Assembly: GCA_903830915.1 (NCBI GenBank)
Contig: CAIKVR010000073.1
Location: 1 to 47,066, forward strand
Direction: 5' to 3'
From: an uncultured Bacteroidales bacterium
Lineage (GTDB): Bacteria > Bacteroidota > Bacteroidia > Bacteroidales > Paludibacteraceae
DNA: 47,066 bases
Below are positions 6,379-41,611 of the stretch, piece after piece. The stretch's first letter is position 1; each line of letters opens with the position of its first letter. A model generated the notes under the pieces. That model saw nothing but the letters and a program-made list of their open reading frames with translations, ran no database searches and had not been told where the DNA came from. The translations under genes were made by a program, and so were the position numbers.

Positions 6379-6767
6379 AATCGTCAGATTAACTATATGA
6401 AAATCAAAACACAAAATCGAACCGTCAGATTAACACAAATGAAAATGGAAACAGCTTTTTTGATGGTCATATTAACTATATTTGGTTTGAAAATGGCAAT
6501 TTTGATGCTTTAATGACTTGTTTTGAATTTGAAAACTGTAAACAAACGTTTAATTTAACCGTTTTTCTTGCGAAAACAGTTAATTAGACGGTCAAATTTA
6601 CTGTTTTGAAAATCAGTTGTGTTAATCTGACCGTCATTTTTTATATTCTATTTTTACATTTACCAAAAATGACGGTCATTTTTTATAGTTGATTTTAAGA
6701 AATGCCTGGTTTGATGGTCAAATTATAACCTGACAAATTCAGAAATTCAAAATAAATGCTCAACTTA
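6379..6767. repeat. 42-bp-period array C (GAyGGTCA core)
   Basis: Units begin at 6379, 6420, 6462, 6504, 6546, 6587, 6629, 6671 and 6713, with a weak tenth at 6755, so every step is 41 or 42 bp. The best units start GAyGGTCAnATTAAC; those at 6504 and 6546 are degenerate. The core TGAC-S-GTCA is an odd palindrome. In the unit at 6671 it extends to a 19-bp palindrome (6665-6683), and units 7 and 8 form a 14-bp inverted pair (6628-6641 with 6665-6678). Stops in frame argue against coding. Confidence 0.8.
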
Positions 6768-6820
6768 GGGATGCTAATTACTAATGATAGAGACTAATGG
6801 TAAATCTCTTTAATCCCAGA

Positions 6821-6890
6821 GGTTAAAACCCTTACGCAACAAAATAATCGTCGCTATACGACTGGCTTGAATGTGTAGTACAGCAAGTGG
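6821..6890 (-). repeat. REP-like element, copy 1
   Basis: About 45 bp of near-identical core, with weaker similarity to about 70 bp, is shared with the reverse complement of 40790-40868. It contains GGTTAAAACCCTTACGCAAC and the small inverted motif CGTCGCTATACGAC. The size, dyad symmetry and intergenic position resemble REP sequences mobilised by RAYT/TnpA-REP transposases; no such transposase is in the window. Confidence 0.65.
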
Positions 6891-6932
6891 AATAGTGACT
6901 TGTTGATAATGGAAGTGATATAGAAAACACAC

Positions 6933-6957
6933 TAACAGATTTTGTAAATCTGTTAGG
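6933..6957. repeat. AT-rich hairpin
   Basis: CTAACAGATTT and its exact complement flank a 3-nt loop, giving an 11-bp perfect stem. It lies just beyond the GC-rich hairpin in the 3' region of the PL11 gene and could stop transcription from either side, or be another interspersed palindrome. Confidence 0.6.
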
Positions 6958-6977
6958 ACTGAAGACTGTGAAACAAC

Positions 6978-7010
6978 ACCGACCCCGTTGCTCTGAGCGA
7001 CGGGGTCGGT
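6978..7010. terminator. GC-rich hairpin downstream of PL11 gene 1
   Basis: ACCGACCCCGT pairs perfectly with ACGGGGTCGGT (11 bp), and GCT/AGC can extend the stem. It lies 37 bp past the PL11 stop codon. There is no good T-run on either side, so terminator function is likely but not certain. Confidence 0.6.
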
Positions 7011-7046
7011 AGTTTAAGTAGTATCCAACAGTTTAGCGAGTGATTA

Positions 7047-10000
7047 TTACATCTTTATCACTTTACGAATAAAATGCTGGTTTTTATCAGAGCTTATCCG
7101 AACAAAGTAGAAACCTGAATGAAAACTGTTCATGTCTAACCTATGATTTATTCCGAAAGTAATTTGGTGTGAAATCAGAACTTTAGCGACTTCATCAATC
7201 AATTCTACTTTTATTTCGCCATTAAGACTTCCAAATTCAACCAAACAGTAATTATTTACTACAGTAGGGTAAACCCGGATATTATCTCCTGTCACATCTT
7301 CCATGCCATCAGCCACATCCACTGAAATAATACCCGATGTGATACGTGAAGTATTCCATTTAAGTCCATCACCCGGAATAGCCGGAACAATACTCGAAAA
7401 CGATCCGACATATTTTGTTGCATTAAATATAACCAATGAATCACCTGCGGCAAATGCAGTTGACCCGGTGTTTATAATATTTAATGTACCACCCAAATTA
7501 ATTGTTCCGGTGGACGAAATAACATCATTTGCATTTGGTGATTTTTTAGCTTCAATAATTGTGTTACTTCCGGGATAAAGTGTCAGATTATTATTGATGG
7601 TCAGTTTACCAATTGCATTTACTCCCGGAGACAAAGTACCACCACTTGCGACTGACACAGCTCCGGAAATAATACCTGTACCGGCAAGTGTTCCAGTACT
7701 ATTTACAGCAACAGAACCTGTTCCTGTTCCACTTCCAGTGGTATTGACAATCATTAGTGTTCCATTGGATATTGTTGTGCCTCCCGAATATGTATTGTTT
7801 CCACTCAGGGTCAATGTTCCCTTACCCACTTTCGTTATAGAATTCCCGGTTATAGTACCATTGAAGCGTGAATCAATATTTTTATCTCCAATTACCCAGT
7901 TTTCGCCCCAGACAGTGGATGTTGCATTTCCGGAAAGAGCTCCTAATGTAACAGTAGTGGCAACTGCATCGCCTCCGTTTGTCCCTGTACCACCGTGATA
8001 GATACCAACATTATCACCCAGATTAATTGTAGCTTTGGCATAACCATAGGAGTTTGCAATTCGGAAATTAGTTCCTGATACACCTGTCAAATTCACAGTT
8101 CCGGTAAATGCCGACCAATTGCCAAAGAAAATGGTGCGGTCGATGGTACCAGGCAGATAAACATTAAACGTTCCTCCACCTGTCAACGTTCCCTGGTAAT
8201 TACAACGAACATCAGTATTCATCGTTGCATTCATTCCTGTCGGCACAATGATATTACTGTAAAAGTTAGTATAGGTTGAAGAACTGCTATACATGGTAAG
8301 TGTTGCATTTTCAAGGGTTAAAGAACCTGTACTAATTCCGTTTGTATTAGCAATTTCATCTCCCAATGACAGCGTTCCTGTTTTTACAATAGTATTTCCT
8401 TTAAATGTGTTGGCACTTTTCTGCAGATTCAAAATGCCATATCCTGTTTTTATTAGATTGGCCGTACCTGCAATCACACCTTGAATTGTCATTGTTGAAC
8501 TAACAAACTTACTACTGATTGTATCGTTTATACCATTCAAAGTCATCCCTTTGTTTGTTGACATTGCCGTAGATCCAGAAAGTCTGAATACGGCATTGTT
8601 CAATACAATTTCAGAAGGTGCTACTGAAGTATTGGCACCTATTGAGCTATTAGCCCCTGCATCGGCTATAGTAGCTACTTCCAATGTTCCTGCATTAACT
8701 ACTGTTTTTCCTGTAAAACTGTTTGTTGTTTGCATTGAAAGTACTCCTACCCCATTTTTTGTAAGGGAACCCGTTCCACCGATATTTCCTGTTCCGTTCA
8801 AGGTATAATTACTATTGGAAGTATCAAAAAGCATATTGCTAACCGGAAGAGTTCCCACCAATTTTACAGTTGGATTTGTTACTCCGGTTGAATCAAAAGC
8901 AATAGTATCATTGGCTACAAAAGTCACCGGGTTGCCATCTAATGTCCAGGCAGGAGTGGTTTGAAGATCCCATGTGTTAGAAGAACCATTCCAACTGACC
9001 TTTGCTGCATCTCTGGCAGCTTCTATCGTCAAATAAATAACCCCTGCGTTATTTACAACTGCATACTTTTGTCCGAAAAGTCCTGAAATCCCTATCTTTT
9101 TCAGATTACCGGTAAATGTCCCGGTATAAGCAATAAGTGGATAGGAACCCGGATAAACAACACCATTAAATTTATTTACAACTACGGTTATGGTGTCAGA
9201 AATAACCAGATTTCCGCTTATAACAATCTTATCCGATGGTTTCACTAGATTAGTGGAGTCGTTTGTAATATCGAACAGAGCAAAACTATTGGAAGGCATT
9301 GTGAGATTTTTAGCAAAAGTCAATGTACCTGTAGAACCTTTTTTTCCCGGTGAAACCATAGCACCTTTATTCAACATTACAGGCTGAGAAATTGTACCTG
9401 AGCCACCAAGTTGTGCCCCAAAACTTACCAACACAGGACTTTGATTCAATATTGAGTTTACATACAATGCTCCTTGTTCCACTTTGGTTGTATCGGTATA
9501 ATCTAAGGGGCAATTAAACGATAAAGTACCATTACCCGATTTGAGAATACCTGTTGAACCTGAGATATTTCCGGTACCGTTAAATGAATAGTTTAAAGCT
9601 GAAATCACTTTAATGGAGGCCGGATTCAATGTTCCACTCAAAACAACAGTCGTATCAGAACTGCCTGAAATATCGAACATCACATCATCACCTTGTGTAA
9701 ATACTCCAGAAGTTCCGTTAACCATCCAATTAGAAGTTGATTCATCCCAAACATTGTTCGTGCTATTGCCTTTCCATACACTTTTTGCAGTTTGTATGGG
9801 TGGAGTTGGCGGAGTAGTCATGCCCGATCCCAAATAATAATCGAGCATGTGTGATTGCAAATAGCCTTTTACAGTCATGCTATTGCGATATTCCGGATTT
9901 TGTGCCAGGGTATATAACCGCACATTAGTTGCTATGGGTGAAGTGAAAATAACCAGTTTTGAATAATCGCTGCTAGCCATTACCACTTCTTCCCGCCAGT

Positions 10001-11546
10001 CGCCCATAATGTCGCCATAAAACATGGGAGCTGCCCGATCGCTTCCTGTAGCTGATTCATAGTTCCAAGCGGTTAATGAACGGGAAACTGTAGAAGATGC
10101 ATAATCCCACTTTTCAATTTTTCCATCGTTGTAATTTTCGCTCAATACGTCACCATCCCACCAAATACGAAAGTTTGGATATGGAGTGGATGATGTAATA
10201 TATTTATTTGCCGGTGCATTATAAAGTCCTGAAAATGACCATGCTTCATAACCCGGAGTACGCGGGTCAATATCGCCGGCTTCGCCACGTGCTGCATCAC
10301 CAACATTGATAGTGGAATGTTTCCAAATTATTTTTCCTGTTCCTGCGTCGTAGTAATACTCAATCAAACCATCGATATTATCCTGCTGAATTCCATAACC
10401 TTGCAATCCTGCCCGATTGGGATCAAGCTTGCCCACATGCCAACGGTCGCCATGATAAATACCGCTTGCACCAAGGTTATACAGCAACGAACCGTCACCT
10501 TTCAACACAAAACCAATTTCTCCAATTTCATCTTTACCATCACCATCGAAATCCAGAATACGCATTTGATGACCATCGCTTCCTGCAGTAGTCAGATTAT
10601 TTTTCCATTTTTGAGTAATTGCAGTTCCATTATAGTCCCAGGCAACCATCAGGCGGTTAAACGAACCATCTGCATTTCTGTTTTTCATAAATCCAACCAA
10701 ACTGGGGGTTACTCCATTGAGATAGCCAATACCCATGCTACAAGCTAATGGTCCTGTTGCAAGATAATCTGTCGGGAGCTGAACCCGTGCTTTTTCTGCT
10801 CCGGTCATTCCATCAATTACGGAAATAAACTGAACATTACTATTCGCATTTGTAAGTGTGGATCCATCACCAAAAGTCACTCCAGCAGCTGTTCTTAGCA
10901 GTACTTCCGCTTTGCCGTCGCCATCCATGTCATATACAGTAAATCCATCCCACATCCCCACATCAATTACTGTCGGACCGGGGCTGATATTGTCTAAATT
11001 TAAACCGGTACCCAAATCTATTGTCCAGAGAAATGTTCCATCCTTTTTGTAAGCTTCCAGTTTTTCAGAAGCAGTTGTGAAGTCTATTCTATCCACCACA
11101 AAATCATATTCACCGTCTCCATCCAAATCACCTACAGAAACTAAATGAATAGAACTTCCGGCTTTCAAAGGAACTACCACACAGGGTTCAATTGCTGAAT
11201 TGGCAGAAAGTGTAAACATACCGCTTGCATCCTGCTCTATACTATTAATCACTGGTTTCACAAAGTAGGTATTGCTTAATGTGTAACCCATTGTGTTGTC
11301 AGTATAATTAGTACCACCCATAAGAACAGAGCTATTCTGCTTTACAGCAGTTGCACCAGCCACAGATTTGTATACGTTAAACCCAATATTCTTAGGGTCA
11401 TTCCCCAATAATCGCCAGCTTATAAAAGCACTGCTCGTTGCAGTTCGTGTGGCAACAACTCCTCTGCCAAGGTTTTCCATCCTTCGTTGGGCATTTAAAT
11501 TTCCAATGGCCGACACCAGAATAATAAATAAAATCAGTTTTTTCAT
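7047..11546 (-). CDS. PL11 rhamnogalacturonan lyase with beta-repeat region and T9SS tail
   Basis: A 1499-aa secreted RG-I lyase. After a signal peptide (MKKLILFIILVSAIGNLNA), the PL11 catalytic propeller (about 21-577) opens with the family hallmark MENLGRGVVA. It carries Ca-binding loops DLDGDGEYDFVV, DMDGDGKAEVLLR and DFDGDGKDEIGE, and ends near NPEYRNSMTVKGYLQSHMLDYYLG. Residues about 588-1390 hold repeated autotransporter-associated beta-strand motifs, such as TKVGKGTLTLSGNNTYSGGT. The last 80 residues (IRVYPTVVNN...IRKVIKM) are a type A T9SS sorting domain. PL11 enzymes cleave rhamnosyl-galacturonate bonds by beta-elimination with calcium. The repeat region roughly doubles the usual PL11 length and may display the catalytic head. 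The gene lies 95 bp downstream of GH2 but seems to have its own promoter, whose -33 box is inside GH2. Confidence 0.92.
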   Translation of the reverse strand: MKKLILFIILVSAIGNLNAQRRMENLGRGVVATRTATSSAFISWRLLGNDPKNIGFNVYKSVAGATAVKQNSSVLMGGTNYTDNTMGYTLSNTYFVKPVINSIEQDASGMFTLSANSAIEPCVVVPLKAGSSIHLVSVGDLDGDGEYDFVVDRIDFTTASEKLEAYKKDGTFLWTIDLGTGLNLDNISPGPTVIDVGMWDGFTVYDMDGDGKAEVLLRTAAGVTFGDGSTLTNANSNVQFISVIDGMTGAEKARVQLPTDYLATGPLACSMGIGYLNGVTPSLVGFMKNRNADGSFNRLMVAWDYNGTAITQKWKNNLTTAGSDGHQMRILDFDGDGKDEIGEIGFVLKGDGSLLYNLGASGIYHGDRWHVGKLDPNRAGLQGYGIQQDNIDGLIEYYYDAGTGKIIWKHSTINVGDAARGEAGDIDPRTPGYEAWSFSGLYNAPANKYITSSTPYPNFRIWWDGDVLSENYNDGKIEKWDYASSTVSRSLTAWNYESATGSDRAAPMFYGDIMGDWREEVVMASSDYSKLVIFTSPIATNVRLYTLAQNPEYRNSMTVKGYLQSHMLDYYLGSGMTTPPTPPIQTAKSVWKGNSTNNVWDESTSNWMVNGTSGVFTQGDDVMFDISGSSDTTVVLSGTLNPASIKVISALNYSFNGTGNISGSTGILKSGNGTLSFNCPLDYTDTTKVEQGALYVNSILNQSPVLVSFGAQLGGSGTISQPVMLNKGAMVSPGKKGSTGTLTFAKNLTMPSNSFALFDITNDSTNLVKPSDKIVISGNLVISDTITVVVNKFNGVVYPGSYPLIAYTGTFTGNLKKIGISGLFGQKYAVVNNAGVIYLTIEAARDAAKVSWNGSSNTWDLQTTPAWTLDGNPVTFVANDTIAFDSTGVTNPTVKLVGTLPVSNMLFDTSNSNYTLNGTGNIGGTGSLTKNGVGVLSMQTTNSFTGKTVVNAGTLEVATIADAGANSSIGANTSVAPSEIVLNNAVFRLSGSTAMSTNKGMTLNGINDTISSKFVSSTMTIQGVIAGTANLIKTGYGILNLQKSANTFKGNTIVKTGTLSLGDEIANTNGISTGSLTLENATLTMYSSSSTYTNFYSNIIVPTGMNATMNTDVRCNYQGTLTGGGTFNVYLPGTIDRTIFFGNWSAFTGTVNLTGVSGTNFRIANSYGYAKATINLGDNVGIYHGGTGTNGGDAVATTVTLGALSGNATSTVWGENWVIGDKNIDSRFNGTITGNSITKVGKGTLTLSGNNTYSGGTTISNGTLMIVNTTGSGTGTGSVAVNSTGTLAGTGIISGAVSVASGGTLSPGVNAIGKLTINNNLTLYPGSNTIIEAKKSPNANDVISSTGTINLGGTLNIINTGSTAFAAGDSLVIFNATKYVGSFSSIVPAIPGDGLKWNTSRITSGIISVDVADGMEDVTGDNIRVYPTVVNNYCLVEFGSLNGEIKVELIDEVAKVLISHQITFGINHRLDMNSFHSGFYFVRISSDKNQHFIRKVIKM

Positions 11547-11628
11547 TTGGAATTAGTAATTAGTTTTAAATTTTAGTTCAGGCTAATTATTAAATTAGAG
11601 ACAGGTTTTAATCAGTCATACACCAGAT

Positions 11629-11665
11629 TTATACAAATGTTTTAAATTTTGCTGTAAATTTCAAT
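11629..11665 (-). promoter_or_regulatory. Promoter of PL11 gene 1, overlapping the GH2 3' end
   Basis: Minus-strand ATTG (11665-11662), a 20-bp spacer and AACATTTG (11641-11634), followed by TATAA. The -33 box lies inside the last codons of GH2. Spacing and layout match the promoters of the other three T9SS genes, with a less conserved -7. Confidence 0.45.
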
Positions 11666-14635
11666 CTCAATAATTCGCAGTTGTCCTTTGGTGTTTAGAT
11701 TCTTAGGATCTTTAAATCCGTCCAATTCTTTCGTTCCGTTTACTTCAATCATATTCTGGAAAGCATCTTTTTCGGTACCTGAACCGGTAAGGCGAATGGT
11801 TAGCGATTTTCCCATAGTCGGTGTAACCGGAATATTGACATAGCCTAAGCTCTGTTTGGTTTCACCTTTCCACACCAGTTTGTTATCTACCAGAATTTCT
11901 ATCGGATAACTGCGTGTTCTCCAACCGGCTAACTTCAGGCAAACTTCGGATACTTCAGCTTCCTCAGTTAATTGATACTTAATCCAACCGGTTGATAATT
12001 TTCCATCGTTCATCCATTCAGTAGTTTCATTATCATCGTAACTCAATGCAACATTATCGTCATTAGTTCCTGCTGTAGCCGAAATAATATCAATTGCTTT
12101 GCGGCTTACTTTGAATGACGGTGTTGACGGTGTTTCACCGCGTGCGAGATAGGAAGGCAAACCATCAGAAGGCAGTTGAGTGCTAAGTCCGTTCAATGTA
12201 TTGAAAGCAGTTGTTTCGAACGAAACAGCATCGCTTTTCAATCCATCGGAAGTGGCAGAGACAGTTACTTTCCCTGCTTGTGTCGTTGTGCGGATTAATA
12301 CACGGTTTTCACCACATTCTGCCGGAAGTGATTTGGACAAAATGTAATTGTCAGGTCCCTGAGCAATACCGCCACGCCATTCGGCAGGTCCTGAAAGTTG
12401 AAAATTCACCATTGGATGTACATTCGGGCAGCGCTGACCTTTTGCATCGACGGCTTCCACCTGTACCAAAACCATATCAGCACCATCGGCCTTTACCGCT
12501 GTAGGACGATTGATTAAAGTGAGTTTTAATGAAACAGGTGCTCCTGCTGTCCTCTTACTATCCGAACTGACTTCTTTCAAGTCCCCTTTAGGGGATTTAG
12601 GGGCTATATAACTAATTGCTTTTAATTCGCCTTCCTGAAACTTCACATTTTTAAACGTGTGTAAGAAATTATAGTTTTTTTCACCATACCCCAATGATTT
12701 TCCATTCAGGAACAATTCGACTTTGTCTGAAGGAGAAACAACCATCACATCCTTTACTGTTCCGGGTTCATAGTTCCAGTGTCCGATAATATAAGTGTGG
12801 TATTTTTCTATATCAACCCAACCATCCCACATTACCTGATGTGCATAATAAGCATCTTTTGCAATACGCATAGCATCCACTTCGCCACTTCGCCGGTAAT
12901 TTTCTTCTCCACGGCAATGGGTATTGGTGTCGGAAAACACGATGTTTAAACCGCCTGAGCTCACCCGTTTTCCGGTTCCCGGTCGACAAACGAAGTAATC
13001 GTTCCAGCGGATTACATCTTCTTTGGCAAATGAATCCTGGTTGCGGTTGTAGTCGCTGGCATCAGCATTTCGGTAAAGTGGACCCGCACCGTTTTTATGA
13101 TAGGGTGCTGTAAACTCATCCCAGTATTTGCGCAGGGCTTCATCTCGGCAGTATTCGGTGGCAATCATAGGTTTGCCGGCACTGTGGTTAATATACAGCA
13201 TTTCACCTCCGTATTCAGCAGTTTTGCTGTTCAACATTTCCCGCGAACCACTGGCACGACCACCGTGAGGGTCGAAGCTGTCACGCACAGCTTTCATATC
13301 AGCCATGTGTTCTTCGCTGACTCCCTTATTTCCGCTTTCGTATAGCAAAACACTTGGACTGTTGCGGTTATAAATAATTGCATCGCGCATCAGCTCCACC
13401 CGTTGTTCCCAACGCCGACCGGTTGGATCACCTTCCGAATCACCGGCAGGAAACATTTGCATCAATCCTACTCGATCACACGATTCCACATCCTGTCTCC
13501 AGGGCGTAACATGCATCCAGCGAACCAGATTGGCGTTATCTTCCACCATTAAGCGATTGCTGTAGTCGCTTAGCCAGGGCGCAACCGACAGACCTACTGC
13601 AGGCCATTCATTGGTTGTACGTTGGGCGTAACCTTTCATTTGAAGTACACGGTCGTTGAGATAAATCATACCGTTTTTAAATTCTGTTTTGCGGAATCCG
13701 GTGCTGGTTTTTACAATGTCGACAACTTTGCCATCTATTTTTAATGTTGTATATACCTTATATAAATAACCGTATCCCCAACTCCAGAAATGAAGATTCT
13801 TTACATCGGATGATGCGGTTAATGTTTTGGCTGAATTAGGTTGTAAAGTCGCTTCATTTGCTGCAAAGCGTGCAATTTCATGTCCATCTATATCCTCAAT
13901 ACTCACTTCCAGAGTCACTTTTTGAGTGGCAGGAGTTTCATTTCTGACTTCCGATTCGGCATGAATAACAGCATGCTTATTTTTGATATCGAATTCGGTA
14001 GCATAAATGTATGTTCCGGTTGTTTTCAGATTAGAATAAAGCGGAAGGGTTTGATATACATTGCCCGTAACATGAAGGAAAACATTTTTCGGAATACCGC
14101 CATAGTTTGCATAGAAACTTTTATTATTCCACTGAAATGGGCTGTTGGTGGCTTGTTCATGATAATTCCAGCTATTGTCAACCCGAACTGCAATTACATT
14201 GTCGGTATTAAACTTTATTTTATTGGTAAGGTCGAACCCAAAAGCCATAACACCATTTTCGTGCAATCCTATTTTTTCTCCGTTTAAATAAACTTCAGCT
14301 GCCAGTCGAACTCCCTCGAACTCAATAAAAACTTTTTTGTCCTTATCCGAAGCCGGTAAGCTGAAATGTTTGCGGTACCAAACCATTGTGTCGGTCAGAT
14401 TCTCGATATGTACCCGAAAAGCTTCGTCTTCGTTGAAAGCATGCGGCAAAGTCACCGGTTTCCAGGAAGAATCATCAAATACCGCTTGTTGTGCATTGGC
14501 AACATCTCCGATTTGAAGTTTCCAGGATGAATTAAAATTGTAGGTTTGTCGGGGGCTGGCCGGCATGTTGTTTTTCTGGCTGTTGACGTTTGTCATCAAA
14601 AAGAAACAGGAAAAAATTAAAATTAGTCGGTTCAT
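11642..14635 (-). CDS. GH2 family glycosidase (beta-galactosidase-like) with atypical acid/base motif
   Basis: A 997-aa secreted GH2 enzyme. I use the ATG at 14635 rather than the GTG one codon earlier; a signal peptide follows (MNRLILIFSCFFLMTNVNS). Domains in order are sugar-binding jelly roll (about 25-190), Ig-like (200-315), TIM barrel (315-600), a DUF4982-like/Ig-like region (600-815), and a C-terminal discoidin-like carbohydrate-binding module (about 840-995). The likely nucleophile is E494 in ATEYC. The acid/base motif reads YESGNKG, so Lys437 occupies the position after GN where most GH2 enzymes have Glu; E433 may replace it. Residues 678-686 come from an interspersed DNA repeat. It starts 17 bp after the GH115 stop and is almost certainly co-transcribed with it. 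Galactosidase activity is inferred from family and context. Confidence 0.85.
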   Translation of the reverse strand: MNRLILIFSCFFLMTNVNSQKNNMPASPRQTYNFNSSWKLQIGDVANAQQAVFDDSSWKPVTLPHAFNEDEAFRVHIENLTDTMVWYRKHFSLPASDKDKKVFIEFEGVRLAAEVYLNGEKIGLHENGVMAFGFDLTNKIKFNTDNVIAVRVDNSWNYHEQATNSPFQWNNKSFYANYGGIPKNVFLHVTGNVYQTLPLYSNLKTTGTYIYATEFDIKNKHAVIHAESEVRNETPATQKVTLEVSIEDIDGHEIARFAANEATLQPNSAKTLTASSDVKNLHFWSWGYGYLYKVYTTLKIDGKVVDIVKTSTGFRKTEFKNGMIYLNDRVLQMKGYAQRTTNEWPAVGLSVAPWLSDYSNRLMVEDNANLVRWMHVTPWRQDVESCDRVGLMQMFPAGDSEGDPTGRRWEQRVELMRDAIIYNRNSPSVLLYESGNKGVSEEHMADMKAVRDSFDPHGGRASGSREMLNSKTAEYGGEMLYINHSAGKPMIATEYCRDEALRKYWDEFTAPYHKNGAGPLYRNADASDYNRNQDSFAKEDVIRWNDYFVCRPGTGKRVSSGGLNIVFSDTNTHCRGEENYRRSGEVDAMRIAKDAYYAHQVMWDGWVDIEKYHTYIIGHWNYEPGTVKDVMVVSPSDKVELFLNGKSLGYGEKNYNFLHTFKNVKFQEGELKAISYIAPKSPKGDLKEVSSDSKRTAGAPVSLKLTLINRPTAVKADGADMVLVQVEAVDAKGQRCPNVHPMVNFQLSGPAEWRGGIAQGPDNYILSKSLPAECGENRVLIRTTTQAGKVTVSATSDGLKSDAVSFETTAFNTLNGLSTQLPSDGLPSYLARGETPSTPSFKVSRKAIDIISATAGTNDDNVALSYDDNETTEWMNDGKLSTGWIKYQLTEEAEVSEVCLKLAGWRTRSYPIEILVDNKLVWKGETKQSLGYVNIPVTPTMGKSLTIRLTGSGTEKDAFQNMIEVNGTKELDGFKDPKNLNTKGQLRIIEIEIYSKI
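12582..12603 (-). repeat. 22-bp interspersed repeat read in frame inside GH2
   Basis: TCCCCTTTAGGGG plus ATTTAGGGG on the plus strand is a variant of the repeat at 3675-3696. On the coding strand it is translated as APKSPKGDL (residues 678-686), near the end of the DUF4982-like domain and before the next Ig-like domain. Confidence 0.8.
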
Positions 14636-14652
14636 CACGTAAGTTATTTAGA

Positions 14653-28061: not shown

Positions 28062-28077
28062 TAAATAATTCGAATTT

Positions 28078-32919: not shown

Positions 32920-32964
32920 AATGTAAAATAATATAGTTTGTTAATTGATGATTTAAAATTAAAC

Positions 32965-33002: not shown

Positions 33003-33045
33003 AGAGAATTGTACAATAATCTAGAAAATTATTCAAATCAGAAAT

Positions 33046-33258: not shown

Positions 33259-33430
33259 GTCCGGTTACCTGAGTTCCTTTGTGCGAATACAGTTAGCAAA
33301 TTCAGATGTAATGTTTTTTTTATATTTTGGTGATTTGGAATTGTATTATTTTTTTGAGATTATCTGTATTTAATAGTTTGATTCTATGTACATGACATGA
33401 ATTTATTTATACTAAAACAACTAAGTATTA

Positions 33431-33513
33431 ATCGCTCCTATATCCCGTAAAGAGGACTTTTTAAAGCTTGAAAATGCTGAATATGTTTACAATTCTCGAA
33501 CTTCGATAGTTCC
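33431..33513. repeat. Interspersed repeat, copy 1 (pair with 41711-41803)
   Basis: A 21-bp exact match at 33469-33489 and 41761-41781 lies within about 80-90 bp of gapped similarity, including GCTCCTA before it and ACTTCGATA after it. Both copies are next to T9SS tail-coding sequence. Confidence 0.65.
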
Positions 33514-33728
33514 TGCAATTTATTCCGATTTATCGGAAGGGGATATAGGGGCAGTTTAGAATAATATAAACTAATTTAGATGCGACATTTTCAGCTTAAC
33601 ACAACACTAGCCCAATAACAACGCCTTGGGTTATTGAAATAGTTGACAGTTATGCCCGATGTTGCGGTTTTGGGGAAACAACTTAAAAATATCATTAAAT
33701 ACTATTGATTACTCACAATAAAAATATT

Positions 33729-33758
33729 AGCCCGGACTCATGTTATGGAATCCGGGCT
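33729..33758 (-). terminator. Terminator of the 59-aa protein gene
   Basis: AGCCCGGA pairs with TCCGGGCT, followed on the minus strand by AATATTTTTATT. It lies 62 bp past the stop codon of the small gene. Confidence 0.7.
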
Positions 33759-33820
33759 ATATTTTATTAACAAATCAATACCTGATACTTTTATTTCTTT
33801 TTATAGATGAATAAAAGAAT

Positions 33821-34000
33821 TTATCCGCGATTTGATTTGAATGGATCGTTGTTGAAATATTCAGGAGCAGTATTCATTGCTTCACCCGGTGCTTTTGGAG
33901 GAGTCATTGATGATTCCAACTGAAGGGCTATTTCATTGTCTAATTCTATGCGCTCAACTGTTGGAGCTGCATATACTGATTTGTGTGTTTTGTTATTCAT
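33821..34000 (-). CDS. Small 59-aa protein with an NDPF-type C-terminus
   Basis: I start this at the ATG at 34000 (MNNKTHKSVYAAPTVERIEL...), since the longer frame reads through the upstream hairpin. The protein has no signal peptide or membrane segment. A front part APTVERIELDNEIALQLES is followed by a Pro/Gly-rich linker (MTPPKAPGE) and an acidic/aromatic end APEYFNNDPFKSNRG. The look is that of the many small Bacteroidota proteins that begin MKKxYxxPxIExIxLDxExxLxLxS. Their function is unknown to me. The gene lies 114 bp after the 2121-aa T9SS gene, separated by a hairpin, and has its own terminator. It could be a precursor peptide or a small partner of the secreted protein, but neither is shown. 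Confidence 0.65.
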   Translation of the reverse strand: MNNKTHKSVYAAPTVERIELDNEIALQLESSMTPPKAPGEAMNTAPEYFNNDPFKSNRG

Positions 34001-34037
34001 GTCTGTTGATTTTTTGCGGGTTAATTTTTGTTTTAAT

Positions 34038-34066
34038 AACCGCCTGCCCTGTTCAGGTAGGCGGTT
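34038..34066 (-). terminator. Hairpin between the 2121-aa gene and the 59-aa gene
   Basis: AACCGCCT pairs with AGGCGGTT, and GCC/GGT extend the stem imperfectly. It is followed on the minus strand by ATTAAAAC, not a T-run, so it may attenuate rather than fully stop transcription into the small gene. Confidence 0.55.
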
Positions 34067-34114
34067 TGTAGGTAACAATTAATTTTTTCAAAAAATTAAT
34101 TCAATCAATTACTC

Positions 34115-37100
34115 TCAATGCATTATTACTTTCTGAGTAACGGTTTGTCCGTTCTTACACATTGTAACCATATAAACTCCTTTTTCTAAGGAAATACGGG
34201 TTGAAGTATTGTTCAGATTCTTCGATACAATTCTCTGACCAATAGCATTGAACACGTCAAGACTTGCTCCGTTAGCATTACCGTTAATCACCAATTCGTT
34301 ATTGGCATTGGTTGTAATCCAGGTGCTGATAGTTGCAGCATTGAGTCCTGTGGCAACCGATGGAGCTTTGAATACCAGCGTAAATCTACTTGTTGAAGAA
34401 GTTACATCCGAAGTAAAGCTATAATCTGCAGCAGTCAAATCCTGTTCGTAATTCAGTGTTTTATCACGCAGAATAACCTGAGTACCCGCAGCAAAATTGC
34501 TGATTTGCGAAGCTTTAATGCTGAATGTACCTGCAGTCAACGTAGTAAATCCAAGTGGAAGTTCTGTGTTGTAAGGTATAGAATTCAATCCATTAATTGC
34601 TAATTGTTCAGCGCCTACAGTTGTATAAATTTCAGGAACAGAAGCCGAATTATTATTCATTTTCTCTGAATCATAACCATCAATACCATTACTTGCATTT
34701 GCATTGAATAACATAACTGTTTCATCCATATTGGTTCCGTTAGAAACCTGCAGACGCAATACCTGTTGTGTAAGATTCAACATGGATGGAGCTCTTAAAC
34801 TACCATCGGTATAAGTCTGAGCATCACCCTGTAACTGTGAACCTTTATGAGCACGCATTGTATTCTTAAAGGTTATCGCTCCTGTTGTAGAAGTACCATC
34901 ACCTGCTGCATTTACACGCACCCAGAATGCTTGTAGTGGAGGAATGTTTCCTGTTACTACAGTACCATTAGCACCTGTACCAATCTGACTTGTTATATTA
35001 TAGGTATCAAATACATAAGCAGTGTTGCCTGTATTTTTGGTACGATACCAGATAGTTGTTCCTAAGTTAGTTGTACCTGCATCTGCATAAGCAGCATCCC
35101 AGTTTAAGTACGAAGGATAAGGATTACCAACCAGGTTGAAACCAGTCTTGATTGCATCTTTTGTACGGGTAAGATTTACAGTAATATCACCATCATTCAG
35201 TGTTCCATTAAATGTAACATTACCTATAGAAGCTGTACCTATTGATACATAACCATAACCTGCATTTAAATTTCCATCTGTTATTATAGACCATGCTCCA
35301 ACTGGCTCATTCCAGAATTGAACTGAAGTAGCACTGCTTAACGCGCTAATTGGAGCTGCATTTACCGGACTTGAAATATACCAGTTACGACCTGAAGTCA
35401 GATATTGCTGAACATTAGCTGTTGTAATATGTGCTGTTCCATTATTAACGAATGTAGCAGTGCCAGTTGCATCACTTTGAAGATTTAATGTTGAAACGGT
35501 TAACGTCTTACCTGAAGCTACATTCAGTTGTGCTGAAGGAACAAGTGTGAGGTTTCTCAATGTTGAAGTTTGATCTACAGTAAGAGAAGCATCATTCACC
35601 TGAACTGTTGCATTTGAAGGTAATGTTAATGCTGAAATAGTATTTGCACCTGTTGTAGTAGTTCCATTATAAGTAATCACACCGGTTGTAGCATTGTAAC
35701 TATAACCTACAGGTAATGTTGGAGTAGCCGTGTATGTAATAGTGCTTGGATCAGTTATAGTAAATACACTTAATTCAGTTCCTACAGCAGGAGCTGAAGT
35801 TGAACTTACAGTAAATGAAGCGATAGTACTTCCTTCACGGATATTCAAGTGACCAACACCGTTGTTGTTCACATTAACTGTGATAGAGCTTGGTAAAGTA
35901 GCACCAGAAGCAACAACCAGAGTTGCACCACCCGTAACTGTTACAGGAATTGTTCCGGAACCTAAGCTTGCACCACTGGCAAGAGTTACTGTACCGGCAT
36001 CCACTGTAAATGAACCTTGTGTAAACGAGCTGCTATTTCCTGTTAATGTCCAGTTTTTTGTTCCTTTTTTATAGATTTTCAAAGGGGCAGTCAGAGCTGA
36101 ACTATAATTTTTAAAAGTACCGTCAAATACATTATCCGCAGAACTCAAGCTGCCTATTTCATAGGCTAATATACGGTTTGAAGCATTAACAAATCCTCCT
36201 TCGATTGTAGTTGAAGAATTTCCTGAAAGTTCACCAATTGAAATCGTTGATGTACCTCCAGAACTACTGGCTTGATTATAGTTTCTTAATAAACGAACGT
36301 TGTCACCAAGGTTTACTTTAGCATTAGCAAGAGCTACATCTGAGCTAAGTGCGAATCCGGCGGAACCTACGGTAGATGTTACATTTACCTGTGTACCTGA
36401 TGGAACTGTTGCTCCATAAGAAGTTGACCAACGGGTGCTGCTGCTACCTTTTGAACCTGCAATATCCAACTCATAATTCAATGTAGAGATATTGGTAATA
36501 ATAGGTGAACAATATATTGAATAGCTTGAACTACCAGTAGTACTTGCAGTATAATTTTTAATTGTAATAGCACCTCCGTTTCCGGTTATTGCATTCGATG
36601 CAGTAAAGTTACCATTGTACGATGTTGCACCACCCGGTTCCAATGAAATAGTTGCATTATCTTCCATCGTAAATGGTAAGGACATACTTGTGCTGGTAAT
36701 CAATACAGGATAAGCTGCTGTAACTAATACTCCGGTTGATGTTGCCTGTGGTTCCATGCTTGCCAAATGCCAGCTTGAATTATCAGCAGAACTTAACCAG
36801 TTAGTTGCAGTTGACCAATCACCACCCGAAACATTCGATTTGAAATAATCGGTTGCATTTGAATTTGCAGGAGTTGTTGTGTTAGCTGTTGCAGGGCTTG
36901 CAGTCAGATAATTTTCCAGTCCGGTAGTATTATAATCGTTGAAACTAAATGCAGCGAAATAATACTGAGTTCCTGCACTTAAACCTGAAATAGTTGCAGA
37001 TGTTCCTGAAGCAGCAAAACCTACAAAGTAACCTGTCGCAATTTCCTGACCTAAAGTATAGGCAGTTGCGCCTACAGGCACATGAGCTGTTGCTACATCA

Positions 37101-40100
37101 CTGTTGGTTGAATAAAGTACAAGTGTCTTAGCTCCATCACCGGCAGTCCAGCTTAAGTTAGCACTGGTTTGAGTAGCAGAAGTTACCGACAAACTACTTA
37201 CCTGAGTAGAAAGAGTAGCTAAATAACTCAAATAACCTGTTGTTGCATTATAAGTATAACCCGGCAATGAAGTGCCTGAACCATCTTTAATATTTACAGT
37301 ACTAAATGAACCTGAATAACCTCCGGCAGAATTGATAAGTTTAATAGAAGTATTTGCTGCAGGAGCTGAAGCTGAAACAGTAATATTAAGTGTTCCTCCG
37401 TTTGTTACAGCACCGGTTGTAGTAATTACATCATAAGTACTGCTGAAGTTTGTAACTGTCAGATTGGTAGTTCCTGCTAATGACAGCGTTGAGCCAAAAT
37501 TCAAGCTACCATTAAGGGTTGCACCTGCACTGATTGTTGCAGCACCACCAATGCTTCCTGCTCCCTGAAGAGTTGCACCAGAAGCTACGGTTACAGGTAC
37601 TGATCCTAATCCGGCTCCTGAGTTTAAGGTAACTTTACCAGCACTAACAGTAAATAAACCTGTTAGAAATCCTGTACTATTACCTGTTAATGTCCAGTTT
37701 CCAGAACCTACTTTAAAAATTTCTAAAAGATCACCGGCAACATAATTCTTGAATTTTCCATCAAAAGTAGCATCGGTATTTGCTCCACCAATTGTATAGT
37801 CCAAATAACGAGCAGTAATAAATCCACCTTCGATTGTTGAAGTAGAAGCACCGGTAATTTCACCTACAACGATATTAGAGTGTCCACCACTACTATTTTG
37901 GTTATAGTTTTTGAACAATCTTACATTTGCACCAAGGTTTACTTTATAGTTTGTAAGAATACCATCTGATAATGTCGCAAAACCAGCTGAACCAACGGTT
38001 GATGTTACATTTAATTGAGTTCCTGATGGTAAAACAGCTCCAAAACAAGTTCCCCAGTTTGTGCCTTTTATTGCACCTGCAACATTCATTTCCATATTCA
38101 ATGTACTAATGTTGCTGATTGTTGGACTGTATCCAATAGAGTTGTTGTTTATAGAAGATGATGTAAATGATTTAATTTTAACCGCACTACCACTTCCTGC
38201 AATAGTATTAGTAAAATTGTAAGCTGCACCATAGCCAGTTGAACCACCCGGCTCAACTGAAACTGTTGCATCATTTTCCATACTAAATCCTTGTGTCAAT
38301 GAAGTACTGGTAATCAATACTGGATTTGCAGCAGAAACAAGAACTCCTGTAGAATTCGACTGAGGAATCATAGTTGCAATATGCCAGCTTGAATTATCTG
38401 TAGAACTTAACCATGTTGCAATTGTTGACCAGTCACCGGTAGCTCCTGATTTGAAATAATCAGTTGCATTGGAGTTAGCTAGAGTTGCCTGAGTCAACGT
38501 TGCAGGTGAAGATGTTTTATAGTTTTCTGAACCTGCTATGCCACCATCGTCAAATGTAAATACGGCAAAATAATAAGTCGTAGCTGCAGTTAAACTTGAT
38601 AAGCCTGCACTGTTACCTGTACCTATATATAATACATTATAACCTGTAGCAATTTCGGTACCTGCAGTATATGTTGTTCCATCAACAGGTACGTGAGCTG
38701 TTGCTACATCGCTGTTAGTAGAATATAATACAATCGATTTAGCACCACTACCAACAGTCCAACCGAAAGTCATAGAAGTTTGCAATACGCTGCTTGCTCC
38801 GGCTGCACTTGTCTGTGTAGAAGGCTCTGCTGCAATACCGGTACCGGTTACATTCAAATATTGAGTGCTTACATTGGTACTCGCAACACTAATACCGTTT
38901 GAACTTGTATAGGTATAAGCCTGAACTGCTGCAGGAGCAAAACGGGCATAAATAGTTGTTGATGTTACCGTTCCACTGTTTGTTAGAACAATGTTGGATG
39001 AACTAAACGAAATATTATCAGAAGATAACTCAAATCCGGTTGGTGGATGAATGGTTATACTTCCCGCCAATTGACTTCCTTCTACTGTAAAACTCTGAGA
39101 AGAAGAAGTACTTCCGTTAGCTACTTTACCATACGTACCGCTGCCTGATAAGGTTCCGACAGTAACAACTGCATTCGAAGAAACCGCTGAAACTGTTGTT
39201 ACACTTGATTCTGTAGTCGAACAATTTCCACTGGTTACCAATGCTTTGTAAGAGTATGTTGTACCTCCTGTTAAATTTTGAGTGGTGTAACTTGCTGTTG
39301 TAGCTCCGCTACCACCTGAAACATTTGTATAATCAACCCCGTTGGTTGATACTTGCCACTGAATAGTAGAACCAGTATTTCCAGTCAAATTAACAACAGT
39401 TCCATGTGCATCAGGTACTGTTGCATCCACCGCGGTAGCTGTTCCACCTACTGATAATGGATAAACGGTAACTGCATTACCTGCTGTGGCTGTACTCCAA
39501 AGAGTACCCGTAGTTGTATATGATCTTAGGTAATAAGTTCCTGAGGCATTAACATTATAGGTTGATGTTGTAGGATAACTCGTACTTGTTCCTGCAGCAG
39601 AAGCTTGCCAGTAGAAAGTCTCACCACTTGGAGCGGATCCGGTGGTACTAACGGTTACACCTGTTGAATAACATTGTGGTCCATTATTCGATATAGTTCC
39701 TGCATCAGTTATTTTGCCTGTTACGAAATTATCAAAAATTGCAGTAATGGCTCCATTACTACCATTTCCCTGGTTACTACTTCTATTGTCAAATGCAGTA
39801 ATTTTATTCAAATTAGATGCTGAAGCACTTAGAAAATCCTGATTAGATACTGTTACTGCAGCTAATCCAGATTTAGTCAATGACATGCTTACCACTTTAT
39901 GGTTCGTAAAATCAAGTGTAGCTGTTAAAGTATACCAAACATTTTTTGCATAAGCTACATTTATTTGTGTGGCTGAATTAAGGGTGTTAGTGGTGGCAAG
40001 ATCGGCACCAGCATTATTAAATGTAGCAGCGCTAAATACTGTTAAGGCAGGGCTTTGATTCCAGTAATGCCATTTTGCATCGTTACCACAAGCATATAGG

Positions 40101-40480
40101 CATAAAATAGCATTTCCACTTGCGTCAGCTAATGCTACTCCCAATGCATTCCTATAACCCAAGCCATTATCTACTGTTATTTCGAAATCGTAACTAACAG
40201 TAACCATGGTTGCTGTTCCAGTTGATGGACATGCTGCAGAGAACCCACGGTTACCCGAACCTGATCCTGCACTAAAAGTCATCATATCGCTTGTCCAAGC
40301 AATACTGCCACCTGTATTAGCACCTATTGCAGGAGCACTTGTTGCAGCCCAACCGGTAGGATAACCTGAAAGACCGGTAAATGGTTGAGTGTTTAAAGTT
40401 GTTGACACGCTCTCTGCCTGCAGAAAAGCCGTCCACATAATCGCCAATAAGGCGACCCATAAAAGTTTGATTTTTTTCAT
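34115..40480 (-). CDS. Giant 2121-aa T9SS-secreted modular protein
   Basis: An exported protein with no recognisable catalytic domain. After the signal peptide (MKKIKLLWVALLAIMWTAFLQA) come a jelly-roll module (about 23-255, ending ITAIFDNFVTGKI) and Ig-like/PKD-like stretches (about 260-545). Two copies of a roughly 400-450-aa block follow (about 555-1015 and 1095-1505). Each block has a fibronectin-III-like part (VLYSTNSDVATAHVPV, then YYFAxF), NSNATDYFKS...WSTxxxWLSSxDNSSWH, a beta-helix-like part and WTLTGNSxxF. A typical Bacteroidota surface C-terminal region follows (about 1690-2045: SGRNWYISSPVN, FNLVGNPYPSYLNWD, FWVRVN), then a type A T9SS tail ending KVIMH. The composition is rich in Thr, Ser, Gly and Asn. 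It is probably a surface adhesin or glycan-binding scaffold. Its promoter is at 40533-40570. Confidence 0.82.
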   Translation of the reverse strand: MKKIKLLWVALLAIMWTAFLQAESVSTTLNTQPFTGLSGYPTGWAATSAPAIGANTGGSIAWTSDMMTFSAGSGSGNRGFSAACPSTGTATMVTVSYDFEITVDNGLGYRNALGVALADASGNAILCLYACGNDAKWHYWNQSPALTVFSAATFNNAGADLATTNTLNSATQINVAYAKNVWYTLTATLDFTNHKVVSMSLTKSGLAAVTVSNQDFLSASASNLNKITAFDNRSSNQGNGSNGAITAIFDNFVTGKITDAGTISNNGPQCYSTGVTVSTTGSAPSGETFYWQASAAGTSTSYPTTSTYNVNASGTYYLRSYTTTGTLWSTATAGNAVTVYPLSVGGTATAVDATVPDAHGTVVNLTGNTGSTIQWQVSTNGVDYTNVSGGSGATTASYTTQNLTGGTTYSYKALVTSGNCSTTESSVTTVSAVSSNAVVTVGTLSGSGTYGKVANGSTSSSQSFTVEGSQLAGSITIHPPTGFELSSDNISFSSSNIVLTNSGTVTSTTIYARFAPAAVQAYTYTSSNGISVASTNVSTQYLNVTGTGIAAEPSTQTSAAGASSVLQTSMTFGWTVGSGAKSIVLYSTNSDVATAHVPVDGTTYTAGTEIATGYNVLYIGTGNSAGLSSLTAATTYYFAVFTFDDGGIAGSENYKTSSPATLTQATLANSNATDYFKSGATGDWSTIATWLSSTDNSSWHIATMIPQSNSTGVLVSAANPVLITSTSLTQGFSMENDATVSVEPGGSTGYGAAYNFTNTIAGSGSAVKIKSFTSSSINNNSIGYSPTISNISTLNMEMNVAGAIKGTNWGTCFGAVLPSGTQLNVTSTVGSAGFATLSDGILTNYKVNLGANVRLFKNYNQNSSGGHSNIVVGEITGASTSTIEGGFITARYLDYTIGGANTDATFDGKFKNYVAGDLLEIFKVGSGNWTLTGNSTGFLTGLFTVSAGKVTLNSGAGLGSVPVTVASGATLQGAGSIGGAATISAGATLNGSLNFGSTLSLAGTTNLTVTNFSSTYDVITTTGAVTNGGTLNITVSASAPAANTSIKLINSAGGYSGSFSTVNIKDGSGTSLPGYTYNATTGYLSYLATLSTQVSSLSVTSATQTSANLSWTAGDGAKTLVLYSTNSDVATAHVPVGATAYTLGQEIATGYFVGFAASGTSATISGLSAGTQYYFAAFSFNDYNTTGLENYLTASPATANTTTPANSNATDYFKSNVSGGDWSTATNWLSSADNSSWHLASMEPQATSTGVLVTAAYPVLITSTSMSLPFTMEDNATISLEPGGATSYNGNFTASNAITGNGGAITIKNYTASTTGSSSYSIYCSPIITNISTLNYELDIAGSKGSSSTRWSTSYGATVPSGTQVNVTSTVGSAGFALSSDVALANAKVNLGDNVRLLRNYNQASSSGGTSTISIGELSGNSSTTIEGGFVNASNRILAYEIGSLSSADNVFDGTFKNYSSALTAPLKIYKKGTKNWTLTGNSSSFTQGSFTVDAGTVTLASGASLGSGTIPVTVTGGATLVVASGATLPSSITVNVNNNGVGHLNIREGSTIASFTVSSTSAPAVGTELSVFTITDPSTITYTATPTLPVGYSYNATTGVITYNGTTTTGANTISALTLPSNATVQVNDASLTVDQTSTLRNLTLVPSAQLNVASGKTLTVSTLNLQSDATGTATFVNNGTAHITTANVQQYLTSGRNWYISSPVNAAPISALSSATSVQFWNEPVGAWSIITDGNLNAGYGYVSIGTASIGNVTFNGTLNDGDITVNLTRTKDAIKTGFNLVGNPYPSYLNWDAAYADAGTTNLGTTIWYRTKNTGNTAYVFDTYNITSQIGTGANGTVVTGNIPPLQAFWVRVNAAGDGTSTTGAITFKNTMRAHKGSQLQGDAQTYTDGSLRAPSMLNLTQQVLRLQVSNGTNMDETVMLFNANASNGIDGYDSEKMNNNSASVPEIYTTVGAEQLAINGLNSIPYNTELPLGFTTLTAGTFSIKASQISNFAAGTQVILRDKTLNYEQDLTAADYSFTSDVTSSTSRFTLVFKAPSVATGLNAATISTWITTNANNELVINGNANGASLDVFNAIGQRIVSKNLNNTSTRISLEKGVYMVTMCKNGQTVTQKVIMH

Positions 40481-40532
40481 AAAATAATAAATTAATGATT
40501 AATATATAGTTGTTTAAAAATTACGGTTTTGA

Positions 40533-40570
40533 ACGGTACAAAAAAACAACATAATTTTGCTCCTTACAAT
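40533..40570 (-). promoter_or_regulatory. Promoter of the 2121-aa T9SS gene
   Basis: Minus-strand ATTG (40570-40567), a 20-bp spacer, TTTTTTTG (40546-40539), then TACCGT. It shares TTTGTACCGT with the 870-aa gene promoter. Confidence 0.58.
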
Positions 40571-40789
40571 GGAAAAAAATCCGAATGTATAGAATTTTAT
40601 TCACTCCTAGGTTTATAACACCTATTTGTTATTGACTGATTATTGACGTATTGGACACATGTACACGAATAGGTGGATAAATTTTACGGGGAGGTGGGTG
40701 GGAATCAGTGTGAACGAATAAAACCACATGCTCCATTATCAGAGCGTATGAATAAATTTACGCGCTCAGCAAATCGGTCGTGGCTATGC

Positions 40790-40868
40790 CACTTATTGAA
40801 TGTATAGTTGTGCAAGTCGCATAGCGACGACCTATTTGTGGTTGCGTAGGGTTTTAACCCTATGCAAT
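40790..40868 (+). repeat. REP-like element, copy 2
   Basis: In opposite orientation to the copy at 6821-6890. It contains the 26-bp palindrome 40842-40867 (TTGCGTAGGGTT / AACCCTATGCAA) and the small dyad GTCGC-ATA-GCGAC (40817-40829). Confidence 0.65.
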
Positions 40869-40913
40869 GGTGCTATTTGTAGGTGTAGGATTTCTTAAAC
40901 AACAATCAGGAAT

Positions 40914-40945
40914 GTCGTCTTGTCATTATAAAAATTCAAGACGAC
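40914..40945. repeat. Short inverted repeat
   Basis: GTCGTCTTG and CAAGACGAC are perfect 9-bp arms around 14 bases. It could act as a weak terminator or mark a repeat boundary. AAGACGACTTC also occurs at 61-71. Confidence 0.5.
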
Positions 40946-40964
40946 TTCAAACTCTATTCCGTTC

Positions 40965-41236
40965 AGTCAGTCAATAGCATGGGATGATTTCGCTGTATTT
41001 CATCCTATGAAGTCAACAATTAGGGATGTTTTACCTGTGCAACATTCTATGAAGTCAACAATTAGGGATGTTGGAGCAGTGCAACATCCCATGCAACAGG
41101 CTGAGAGGGATGTTGCAGCAGTGAAACATCCGATGCAACGAGCTGAGAGGGATGTTGCAGCAGTGAAACATCCCATGCAACTGGCTGAGAGGGATGTTGG
41201 AGCATTGAAACATCCGATGCAACGAGCTGAGAGGTG
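40965..41236. repeat. 42-bp-period array A (GGGATGTT / AACATCCC core)
   Basis: Units start at 41007, 41049, 41091, 41133, 41175 and 41217 (partial), each exactly 42 bp, with a diverged extra unit at 40965-41006. Each unit has GGGATGTT and AACATCCC about 9-10 bases apart; neighbouring units can also pair across the boundary. The period is 14 codons, so a plus-strand frame (41007-41237) reads as a 14-residue repeat like MQRAERDVAAVKHP, and a minus-strand frame is also open. Coding is not supported by any family, signal or composition evidence. Confidence 0.85.
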
Positions 41237-41333
41237 ACTGTTCACGAAACAACGCAACCATTTTCTCTTTTTATAAGTGTATCCGACAGGACAGGTTTGG
41301 GTTGATATTTTTTAGAAAGTATAATTTGCAACC

Positions 41334-41611
41334 TGAATTGTCCCAACATAAAAGTTACAGAAACCGAATATTGCACTTGAATTGGGTTCTGTAAGGTTAC
41401 AGAACGTAAAAAATGCAGTTAAAATGCTCTCTGTAACATTACAAAATACGAAAAATGCAGATGAAACTACTTCTGTAATGTTACAGAAGTCAATTATTGT
41501 CGTTGAAATGCATTTTGTAATGTTACAGAACCCAATTATTGCACTTGAATTGGGTTTTGTAAAGTTACAGAACCTAATTCAAGTACTTGAAACTACTTCT
41601 GTAACTTTTAT
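41334..41611. repeat. 42-bp-period array B (TTCTGTAA / TTACAGAA core)
   Basis: Units start at 41378, 41420, 41462, 41504, 41546 and 41588 (partial), each exactly 42 bp, after a 44-bp unit at 41334. The core is the palindrome TTCTGTAA-TG-TTACAGAA and variants, once per unit, separated by about 24 bp. The sequence is unrelated to array A and array C. The plus strand is open as 14-residue repeats ending near 41618, with no recognisable protein family. Confidence 0.85.

Follow-up and report, generated by a model that had tools for sequence, protein, structure and literature searches.

The stretch of DNA analysed here (the window, 47,066 nucleotides) is contig CAIKVR010000073.1 of assembly GCA_903830915.1, from an uncultured Bacteroidales bacterium of the family Paludibacteraceae; it is contig C73 of the genome labelled G000 below, a fragmented draft of 4.74 Mb in 436 contigs. 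The window contains a pectin-degradation gene cluster and three intergenic tandem arrays, A, B and C, each with a period of 42 bp. In this study, we describe these arrays and connect them, through related arrays elsewhere, with the genes for DUF6261 (PF19775), an uncharacterised and fast-diverging protein family of about 240 aa. Rfam gave no match across the window, and no cas gene was found among the 15 window proteins scanned, a genome-wide cas search not having been made.

The arrays were called with Tandem Repeats Finder and autocorrelation, and are given without a strand, as are the other features of the window. Array A (6369..6741; motif CGTCAGATTAAC / GTTAATCTGACGG) was detected by autocorrelation as approximately 8–9 degenerate 42-bp units (about 6373-6740), with a best lag of 42 that was weak (identity 0.51). 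Array B (40981..41234) consists of six 42-bp units with the arms GGGATGTT...AACATCCC and an identity of 0.83 at lag 42, as found by both methods. Array C (41347..41611; called by both methods at 41354-41611) consists of six 42-bp units with an identity of 0.69 at lag 42 and the core TGTAA-NN-TTACA at every unit junction. Array C has a terminal inverted repeat, made up of its ends ATAAAAGTTACAGAA ... TTCTGTAACTTTTAT; no such repeat was seen for A or B. The consensus sequences of the three arrays are mutually unrelated, and thus the claim of an earlier, sequence-only reading of the window, that A, B and C share a unit length and an intergenic location without sharing sequence, was borne out. Its further claim of one dyad core per unit holds for B and C, more weakly for A, and not as a rule for the class, as described below. 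Two ordinary identities were considered and rejected. A CRISPR array at B does not agree with the 0.83 identity at lag 42, which spans the whole unit so that the spacers are alike. Coding repeats (heptads) were rejected for A and C, since every copy examined has at least one stop in each of the six frames; the substitutions showed no codon-position bias (A 35/27/30, C 35/39/25). One of the frames of B is stop-free. For the class as a whole, coding repeats are disfavoured by the existence of 41-bp arrays, 41 not being a multiple of 3.

A Pfam scan of 20 proteins flanking arrays returned DUF6261 six times, for four arrays found by their period and two found as copies of A or C. Among five genomes of the genus, we identified 30 DUF6261 matches (10 in the own genome, 11 in G016, four each in G017 and G031, and one in G001); the 14 control genomes had none. 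Three loci were set aside, namely, L253 (a fragment of 53 positions) and L255 and L257 (at contig ends). An array of 41/42 or 82–84 bp was found upstream of 26 of the 27 remaining genes and downstream of the other (C171, array C); when the six discovery genes were left out, the array was upstream in 21 of 21. The sole DUF6261 gene of G001 has an array, though the 194-kb sample of that genome showed none. In a uniform test with the same scan for all genes (identity 0.60, period 40–43 or 82–85 bp), an array lay within 1 kb upstream of 25 of 27 DUF6261 genes versus 2 of 96 other genes (p 1e-21), and within 500 bp upstream of 20 of 27 versus 1 of 99, the small control set (96–99 genes) being filtered for clearly noncoding upstream DNA and the DUF6261 genes unfiltered. 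Eight upstream pieces of DUF6261 genes from other genera gave a clear 41/42-bp array in six cases (L267, L269, L270, L271, L272 and L274), a partial array at a contig end in one (L273) and none in L268. Across the taxonomic family, a DUF6261 match was present in 27 of 101 genomes sampled (23 over the curated cut-off) and in 13 of 33 genera. The sequence-only reading had suggested that one gene family, such as a reverse transcriptase, a transposase or a DNA-binding protein, would track the arrays; such a family was found, and it is neither a reverse transcriptase nor a transposase.

We then compared unit length and array sequence with the proteins. The unit is 41 bp at some DUF6261 loci and 42 bp at others, both within one genome. 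When these labels were mapped onto a maximum-likelihood tree built from 27 DUF6261 proteins, with two loci at 41.5 counted as 42, five changes were needed, compared with a mean of 8.7 for shuffled labels (5 of 500 shuffles were as low). Array sequence was clearly shared between the closest proteins only (L237/L238, L249/L261, L240/L262 and L240/L243, scores 39–116), the median score of 263 distant pairs being 9 and the maximum 19. As sequence is shared among the closest proteins only while unit length follows the protein clade, the spacing outlasts the sequence by far.

The same persistence of spacing was observed in the copies of A and C. Array A has two further full-length copies in its own genome, at C315:40481-40835 (88%) and C425:3248-3614 (84%), and array C has one, at C171:17622-17879 (90%), adjoining a DUF6261 gene; the only match to B elsewhere is a single unit-like one (C308:313-363, 51 bp at 82%). 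A relative of C was found in another species (G017:C83:717-968, 69%, intergenic), and a relative of A in G031 is also upstream of DUF6261. Among the 60 genomes searched per array, own genome included, relatives were present in three for A, one for B and three for C, indicating that the array sequences themselves are not widely conserved. The three A copies align without gaps over 373 bp, of which approximately the last 15 bp are probably flank, with 92 changes; the three C copies (C73, C171 and G017) align without gaps over 264 bp, with 99 changes. Together, this amounts to 191 parsimony changes and no indel. As a yardstick, noncoding DNA of the same kind was compared in 27 homologous pairs, which contained 721 mismatches and 81 gap openings. 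Two of these pairs touch array A or its flank; the 25 others gave 654 substitutions and 79 gap openings. The shortage of indels in A and C is significant against the latter (191/0 vs 654/79, Fisher p 7e-9). That the register survives so many substitutions is more readily explained by a constraint on spacing than by a copying machine alone.

The changes within the units of C are also unevenly placed. Between C73 and C171, none of the 25 differences falls on unit positions 2–10 or 38–42, which hold the junction core TGTAA-NN-TTACA and its extension. In the G017 relative, the core is TGTCA-NN-TGACA instead of TGTAA-NN-TTACA in six of six units, a change that is symmetric on both arms, and unit 6 retains its own spacer. 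The middle units of this relative look homogenised, which could explain part of the uniform change of core. Judged from sequence, the core pattern would fit a dimeric, sequence-specific factor that recognises every unit and whose specificity differs by lineage. As a separate observation, a fourth array, D (L032:1146-1456), has the same core as C, the remainder of its unit being different; its neighbours are a helix–turn–helix protein and a 257-aa protein without assignment.

To place the 42-bp period in a wider frame, noncoding DNA of sampled stretches was scanned by window autocorrelation. In the own genome (846 kb), 8 of 15 noncoding matches were at period 42, 83 or 84; this sample is biased, as it contains the window and three stretches fetched for copies of A or C, and six of the eight come from the window (3) or from those stretches (3), leaving 2 of 9 elsewhere. 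The relative G016, a single contig of 3,685,504 bp, was sampled as 40 stretches of 20 kb (800 kb) that were not picked for arrays, and 14 of its 18 noncoding matches were at period 41, 42, 63, 82 or 84, two of the 14 representing one array (L099 1480-1880). By eye, no relation is seen among the G016 arrays or between them and A, B and C; a 21-bp sub-period is present in several of them. No noncoding match was found in the 194 kb sampled from G001, and a block shuffle of the own-genome sample gave 10 matches at z >= 5, none at 42. In other taxa (71 loci, 1.32 Mb), 11 of 16 noncoding matches were at period 22, 23, 44 or 66, mostly in Bacteroides and Phocaeicola. The presence of both the 41/42 class and the 22/23/44/66 class suggests that a quantum near 21–22 bp, doubled or not, is common; by eye, a sub-period of 20.5–22 is visible in some arrays (L100, L101, L107, L277 and L279) and not in others. 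Enrichment of the period, which the sequence-only reading had proposed to check genome-wide, is thus seen in the G016 sample, while the own genome contributes 2 of 9 outside the biased stretches; its inference that the recurrence of one period is no coincidence and has a common cause is supported as the best reading.

We propose, with a probability of about one half, that the regular sites of an array are bound by the DUF6261 protein paired with it, and that this binding sets their spacing. Linkage, array position, a period following the protein clade and the protection of spacing and core are observations; the binding, DNA as its ligand, the feedback described below and any wider role are inferences. 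In this sequence-based model, array and protein would together form a two-part module, DUF6261 being mostly encoded beside its own array. In the best-studied arrays, each unit combines a less constrained spacer with a conserved core of approximately 12–18 bp, which is often a dyad. DUF6261 protomers or dimers would bind the cores side by side at the fixed distance of 41/42 bp, equal to four helical turns and sometimes subdivided into 21, and this side-by-side binding would generate an ordered nucleoprotein assembly. With the array close to, and mostly just below, the promoter of the gene, the assembly could feed back on DUF6261 expression. The protein would set the ruler, and core and protein would drift together, giving rise to paralogous pairs with unrelated arrays and the same spacing. 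A and C would be such arrays copied away from their gene.

Several observations weigh against this proposal. At six loci, referred to as far-type, the array ends 243–730 bp upstream of the gene, and in five of the six a promoter box lies between the two. Indels are rare, not absent: the orthologous pair L237/L238 shows 26 substitutions and 2 gaps, and its addition changes the comparison to 217/2 vs 654/79 (p 1e-7). Large gaps, which look like the gain or loss of units, occur in L249/L261 (150 columns) and L240/L262 (39 columns, plus one of 2), and stand outside the 217/2 sum; in addition, some of the 92 changes of A fall in probable flank. Array similarity and protein similarity are weakly correlated (rho 0.11; 46 of 1000 permutations as high). 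Besides the filtering of the control genes noted above, the converse of the linkage is loose, as only 4 of the 14 G016 class matches adjoin DUF6261 and other protein families also have upstream arrays. A dyad beyond shuffles (p <= 0.015) was detected in just 10 of 32 DUF6261-upstream arrays. As for the protein, comparison of DUF6261 with solved structures gave no convincing match, the best being to designed proteins (E 0.048). Most members (21 of 28) are acidic (pI 5.2–6.5). A basic clade also exists (L245, L249, L259, L261, L263 and L265; pI 8.7–9.7), with the array far upstream in five of its six members. Matches in PHROGs and PADLOC (15 members) and in NCBIfam (5 members) were weak and scattered, and four single-protein scans of viral contigs returned no relatives. 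In the literature searched, DUF6261 is named in a single paper, in a variant table only, and PF19775 nowhere, and neither a function nor a link with repeats is described.

The ligand proposed above is DNA, and the strongest competitor concerns RNA. At 20 loci, referred to as near-type, the array ends about 16–154 bp before the DUF6261 start codon. The motif TAnnTTTG is the consensus of the Bacteroidota ‒7 box. Among the near-type loci, 13 of 20 have this box 40–135 bp before the array, compared with 1 of 20 on the opposite strand of the same interval; further upstream, the counts were 2 and 1 of 20. The box upstream of the array suggests that the array is probably transcribed within the leader at most near-type loci. 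The array might accordingly act as RNA, that is, as the leader of the DUF6261 mRNA with units recognised or processed by the protein, forming a ribonucleoprotein in the manner of a type III toxin–antitoxin system or an RNA autoregulator. Unit length and position before the gene do resemble those of type III antitoxin arrays, and folding of the 32 arrays is better than that of shuffled sequences (mean z ‒3.0). However, the other strand folds equally well (mean z ‒3.2), and the dyads contain 152 G-U pairs versus 130 A-C pairs, and thus neither test for selection on an RNA strand gave a signal. Also against this reading stand the far-type loci, where a promoter box separates the array from the gene in five of six cases, the lack of an Rfam family in the window and the lack of a ToxN-type Pfam match in the DUF6261 proteins scanned. 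With these RNA-specific tests negative, we place DNA binding narrowly ahead and consider action as RNA possible, if rather unlikely.

The copies of A and C bear on a further alternative. Part of the flank of A (6320..6368) is common to the C315 and C425 copies in the three-copy alignment, indicating that the copied segment exceeds the array in length. On the low-coordinate side of C, 41306..41346 is common to the C171 copy (local alignment score 29; maximum of 300 shuffles 21.5), and a terminator-like hairpin, CCCCGAAGGAATAAATCCTTCGGGG (41650..41674), is found at the same place at C171, there 3' of the DUF6261 gene (score 65; maximum of 300 shuffles 23.5). Clear similarity between the surroundings of C and of C171 ends at this hairpin, and DUF6261 codons were not recognised. 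Array A is a gene-less copy of the array that precedes the DUF6261 gene at G000:C315, and array C is a gene-less copy of the C171 array beside DUF6261, with the hairpin and approximately 40 bp of flank on the other side. No DUF6261 gene or fragment was found in the window by tblastn with two members (best E 0.62), and no remnant beside C was recognised in the local alignment to C171. Beside the C171 copy, L049:18235-19106 holds a Y1 transposase gene and a 192-bp tandem duplication (98% match). Such features might be taken to mean that the arrays are non-autonomous mobile elements, resembling miniature inverted-repeat transposable elements (MITEs) or repetitive extragenic palindromes (REPs), with an internal minisatellite and with DUF6261 as cargo or transposition helper. 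The own genome indeed holds A three times and C twice with some flank, C has terminal inverted repeats and a Y1 transposase adjoins one copy, and MITEs with an internal 23-nt minisatellite are described for Porphyromonas gingivalis in the available text of PMC4596501. Nevertheless, mobility explains neither one period for unrelated sequences nor a period that follows the protein clade, and an array stands upstream of nearly all DUF6261 genes examined. No target duplication was seen; the C copies have flanking sequences that are related to each other, which leaves no definable empty site. We therefore regard mobility as improbable. Least probable of all is that 42-bp units arise from any seed without function, through slippage or through an enzyme that copies with a fixed ruler. 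Such a mutational origin would suit unrelated, quickly turned-over sequences and the apparent gain or loss of units, but not a register held through 191 substitutions with no indel, a core spared while the spacer changes, or a near-obligate site before one gene family.

The pairing of arrays with neighbouring genes may extend beyond DUF6261: in G016, another three arrays stand before genes for small proteins to which Pfam assigns no family. The P0001 family (approximately 231 aa) has nine members in three of five genomes in a search for relatives, and upstream DNA was available for seven. Its discovery locus, L107:12090-12290, has a 63/21-bp array upstream, and clear upstream arrays were also detected at L275 (61), L277 (41), L278 (42/21) and L279 (22/44). 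At L021:1850-1930, the 21-bp signal was weak and did not exceed the background in a second scan, and L276 had no upstream array. Arrays with a 20–22-bp quantum thus stand upstream of five of seven genes, discovery gene L107 included, with the sixth weak. A third family, P0002 and P0003 (207–208 aa), has 21/42/84-bp arrays upstream, at L101:3225-3455 and L097:13460-13800, both known members having been found through their arrays and so providing no test of linkage; P0002 has a weak fn3 match. Profile comparison detected no homology of DUF6261 with the P0001 family or of the P0001 family with the third family, DUF6261 being compared with the first only. With slightly less assurance than for DUF6261 binding itself, we suggest that the constant-size, variable-sequence repeats of bacteria serve as private nucleic-acid platforms for small, fast-evolving proteins whose genes adjoin them. 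These would include DUF6261 and, here, probably a minimum of one family unrelated to it. The geometry of the protein would fix the ruler (approximately 21 or 41/42 bp) as cognate pairs diverge. This would be a previously undescribed two-part module, present in several divergent copies per genome.

Several other features were noted. The intergenic stretches at 6840-6980 and 40780-40900 of the window, near A and B, are alike by eye (AACCCTTACGCAAC / GTCGC-GCGAC arms), and are possibly another dispersed repeat. Short intergenic 22/23-bp arrays were seen at L155:15140-15235 (Phocaeicola vulgatus ATCC 8482), L162, L163, L174, L177, L183, L189 and L216; several of these Bacteroides-type arrays have a palindrome per unit, and the neighbours looked at were not DUF6261. 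L033:1539-2282 contains a gene that by eye resembles a REP-associated Y1 transposase, with palindromes like AGACGCAATGCATTGCGTCT at a spacing of approximately 42 bp inside its reading frame and 47 bp outside. With respect to neighbouring genes, 31 arrays comprised 13 tandem, 10 divergent and 5 convergent cases and 3 of undetermined orientation; a role as terminator or operator of ordinary neighbours was rejected, there being by itself no orientation preference.

Finally, we compared these arrays with known systems. As in REPs and their associated transposases, the repeats are dispersed, palindromic and intergenic, and one Y1 gene adjoins the C171 copy; in contrast to that system, the constant feature is the spacing of the units and not their sequence, and the linked family is DUF6261. 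Type III toxin–antitoxin loci (ToxIN, CptIN and TenpIN) carry tandem repeats of roughly 35–45 nt directly upstream of the gene, as cognate pairs. The arrays described here likewise stand as short tandem arrays before a small protein gene (26 of 27 DUF6261 genes, 20 of them within approximately 155 bp of the start codon), whereas no ToxN, CptN or TenpN match was found, Pfam giving DUF6261 only for the six members scanned, no RNA-strand signal was detected and some DUF6261 arrays lie above the promoter. Porphyromonas gingivalis belongs to the same order as the source genome. Its BrickBuilt MITE has 23-nt tandem repeats inside terminal-inverted-repeat elements in several copies, and differs from the present arrays in forming one sequence family with IS5-family-like ends and, as far as the available text goes, no link with DUF6261 (PMC4596501). 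The closest likeness is with the repeats of Subirana and Messeguer (PMC8161180), the available text of which describes Bacillus repeats of 20–21 and 52 nt in species-specific, unrelated families with no function, suggests a protein polymerising on DNA or a small RNA, and points out the two helical turns of the 20–21-nt class. Both kinds are noncoding, with one repeat size and several unrelated families per genome, and the present arrays fit the constant-size, variable-sequence class in all but exact size. The suggestion of the sequence-only reading that the array type is undescribed does not stand, repeats of this kind being already in print for other bacteria in that source (PMC8161180); later work on constant-size repeats was not found in the literature searched. 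If the pairing is real, a genome can harbour up to approximately ten divergent protein–array pairs whose ruler is built in; such pairs would be of interest in gene regulation and nucleoid organisation, and as programmable scaffolds. In contrast to the Subirana–Messeguer repeats of 20–23 or 52 nt, the present arrays have units of 41/42 bp (with a half-unit of 20.5–22 in some), occur in Bacteroidales, comprise few and often degenerate units and have a linked gene family, none being reported in the available text of PMC8161180. The array type is thus known; what appears to be new is the gene partner, together with the clade-specific ruler. Constant-size repeats without sequence conservation have so far been reported without partner or function, and with a near-obligate gene partner the question becomes open to test.

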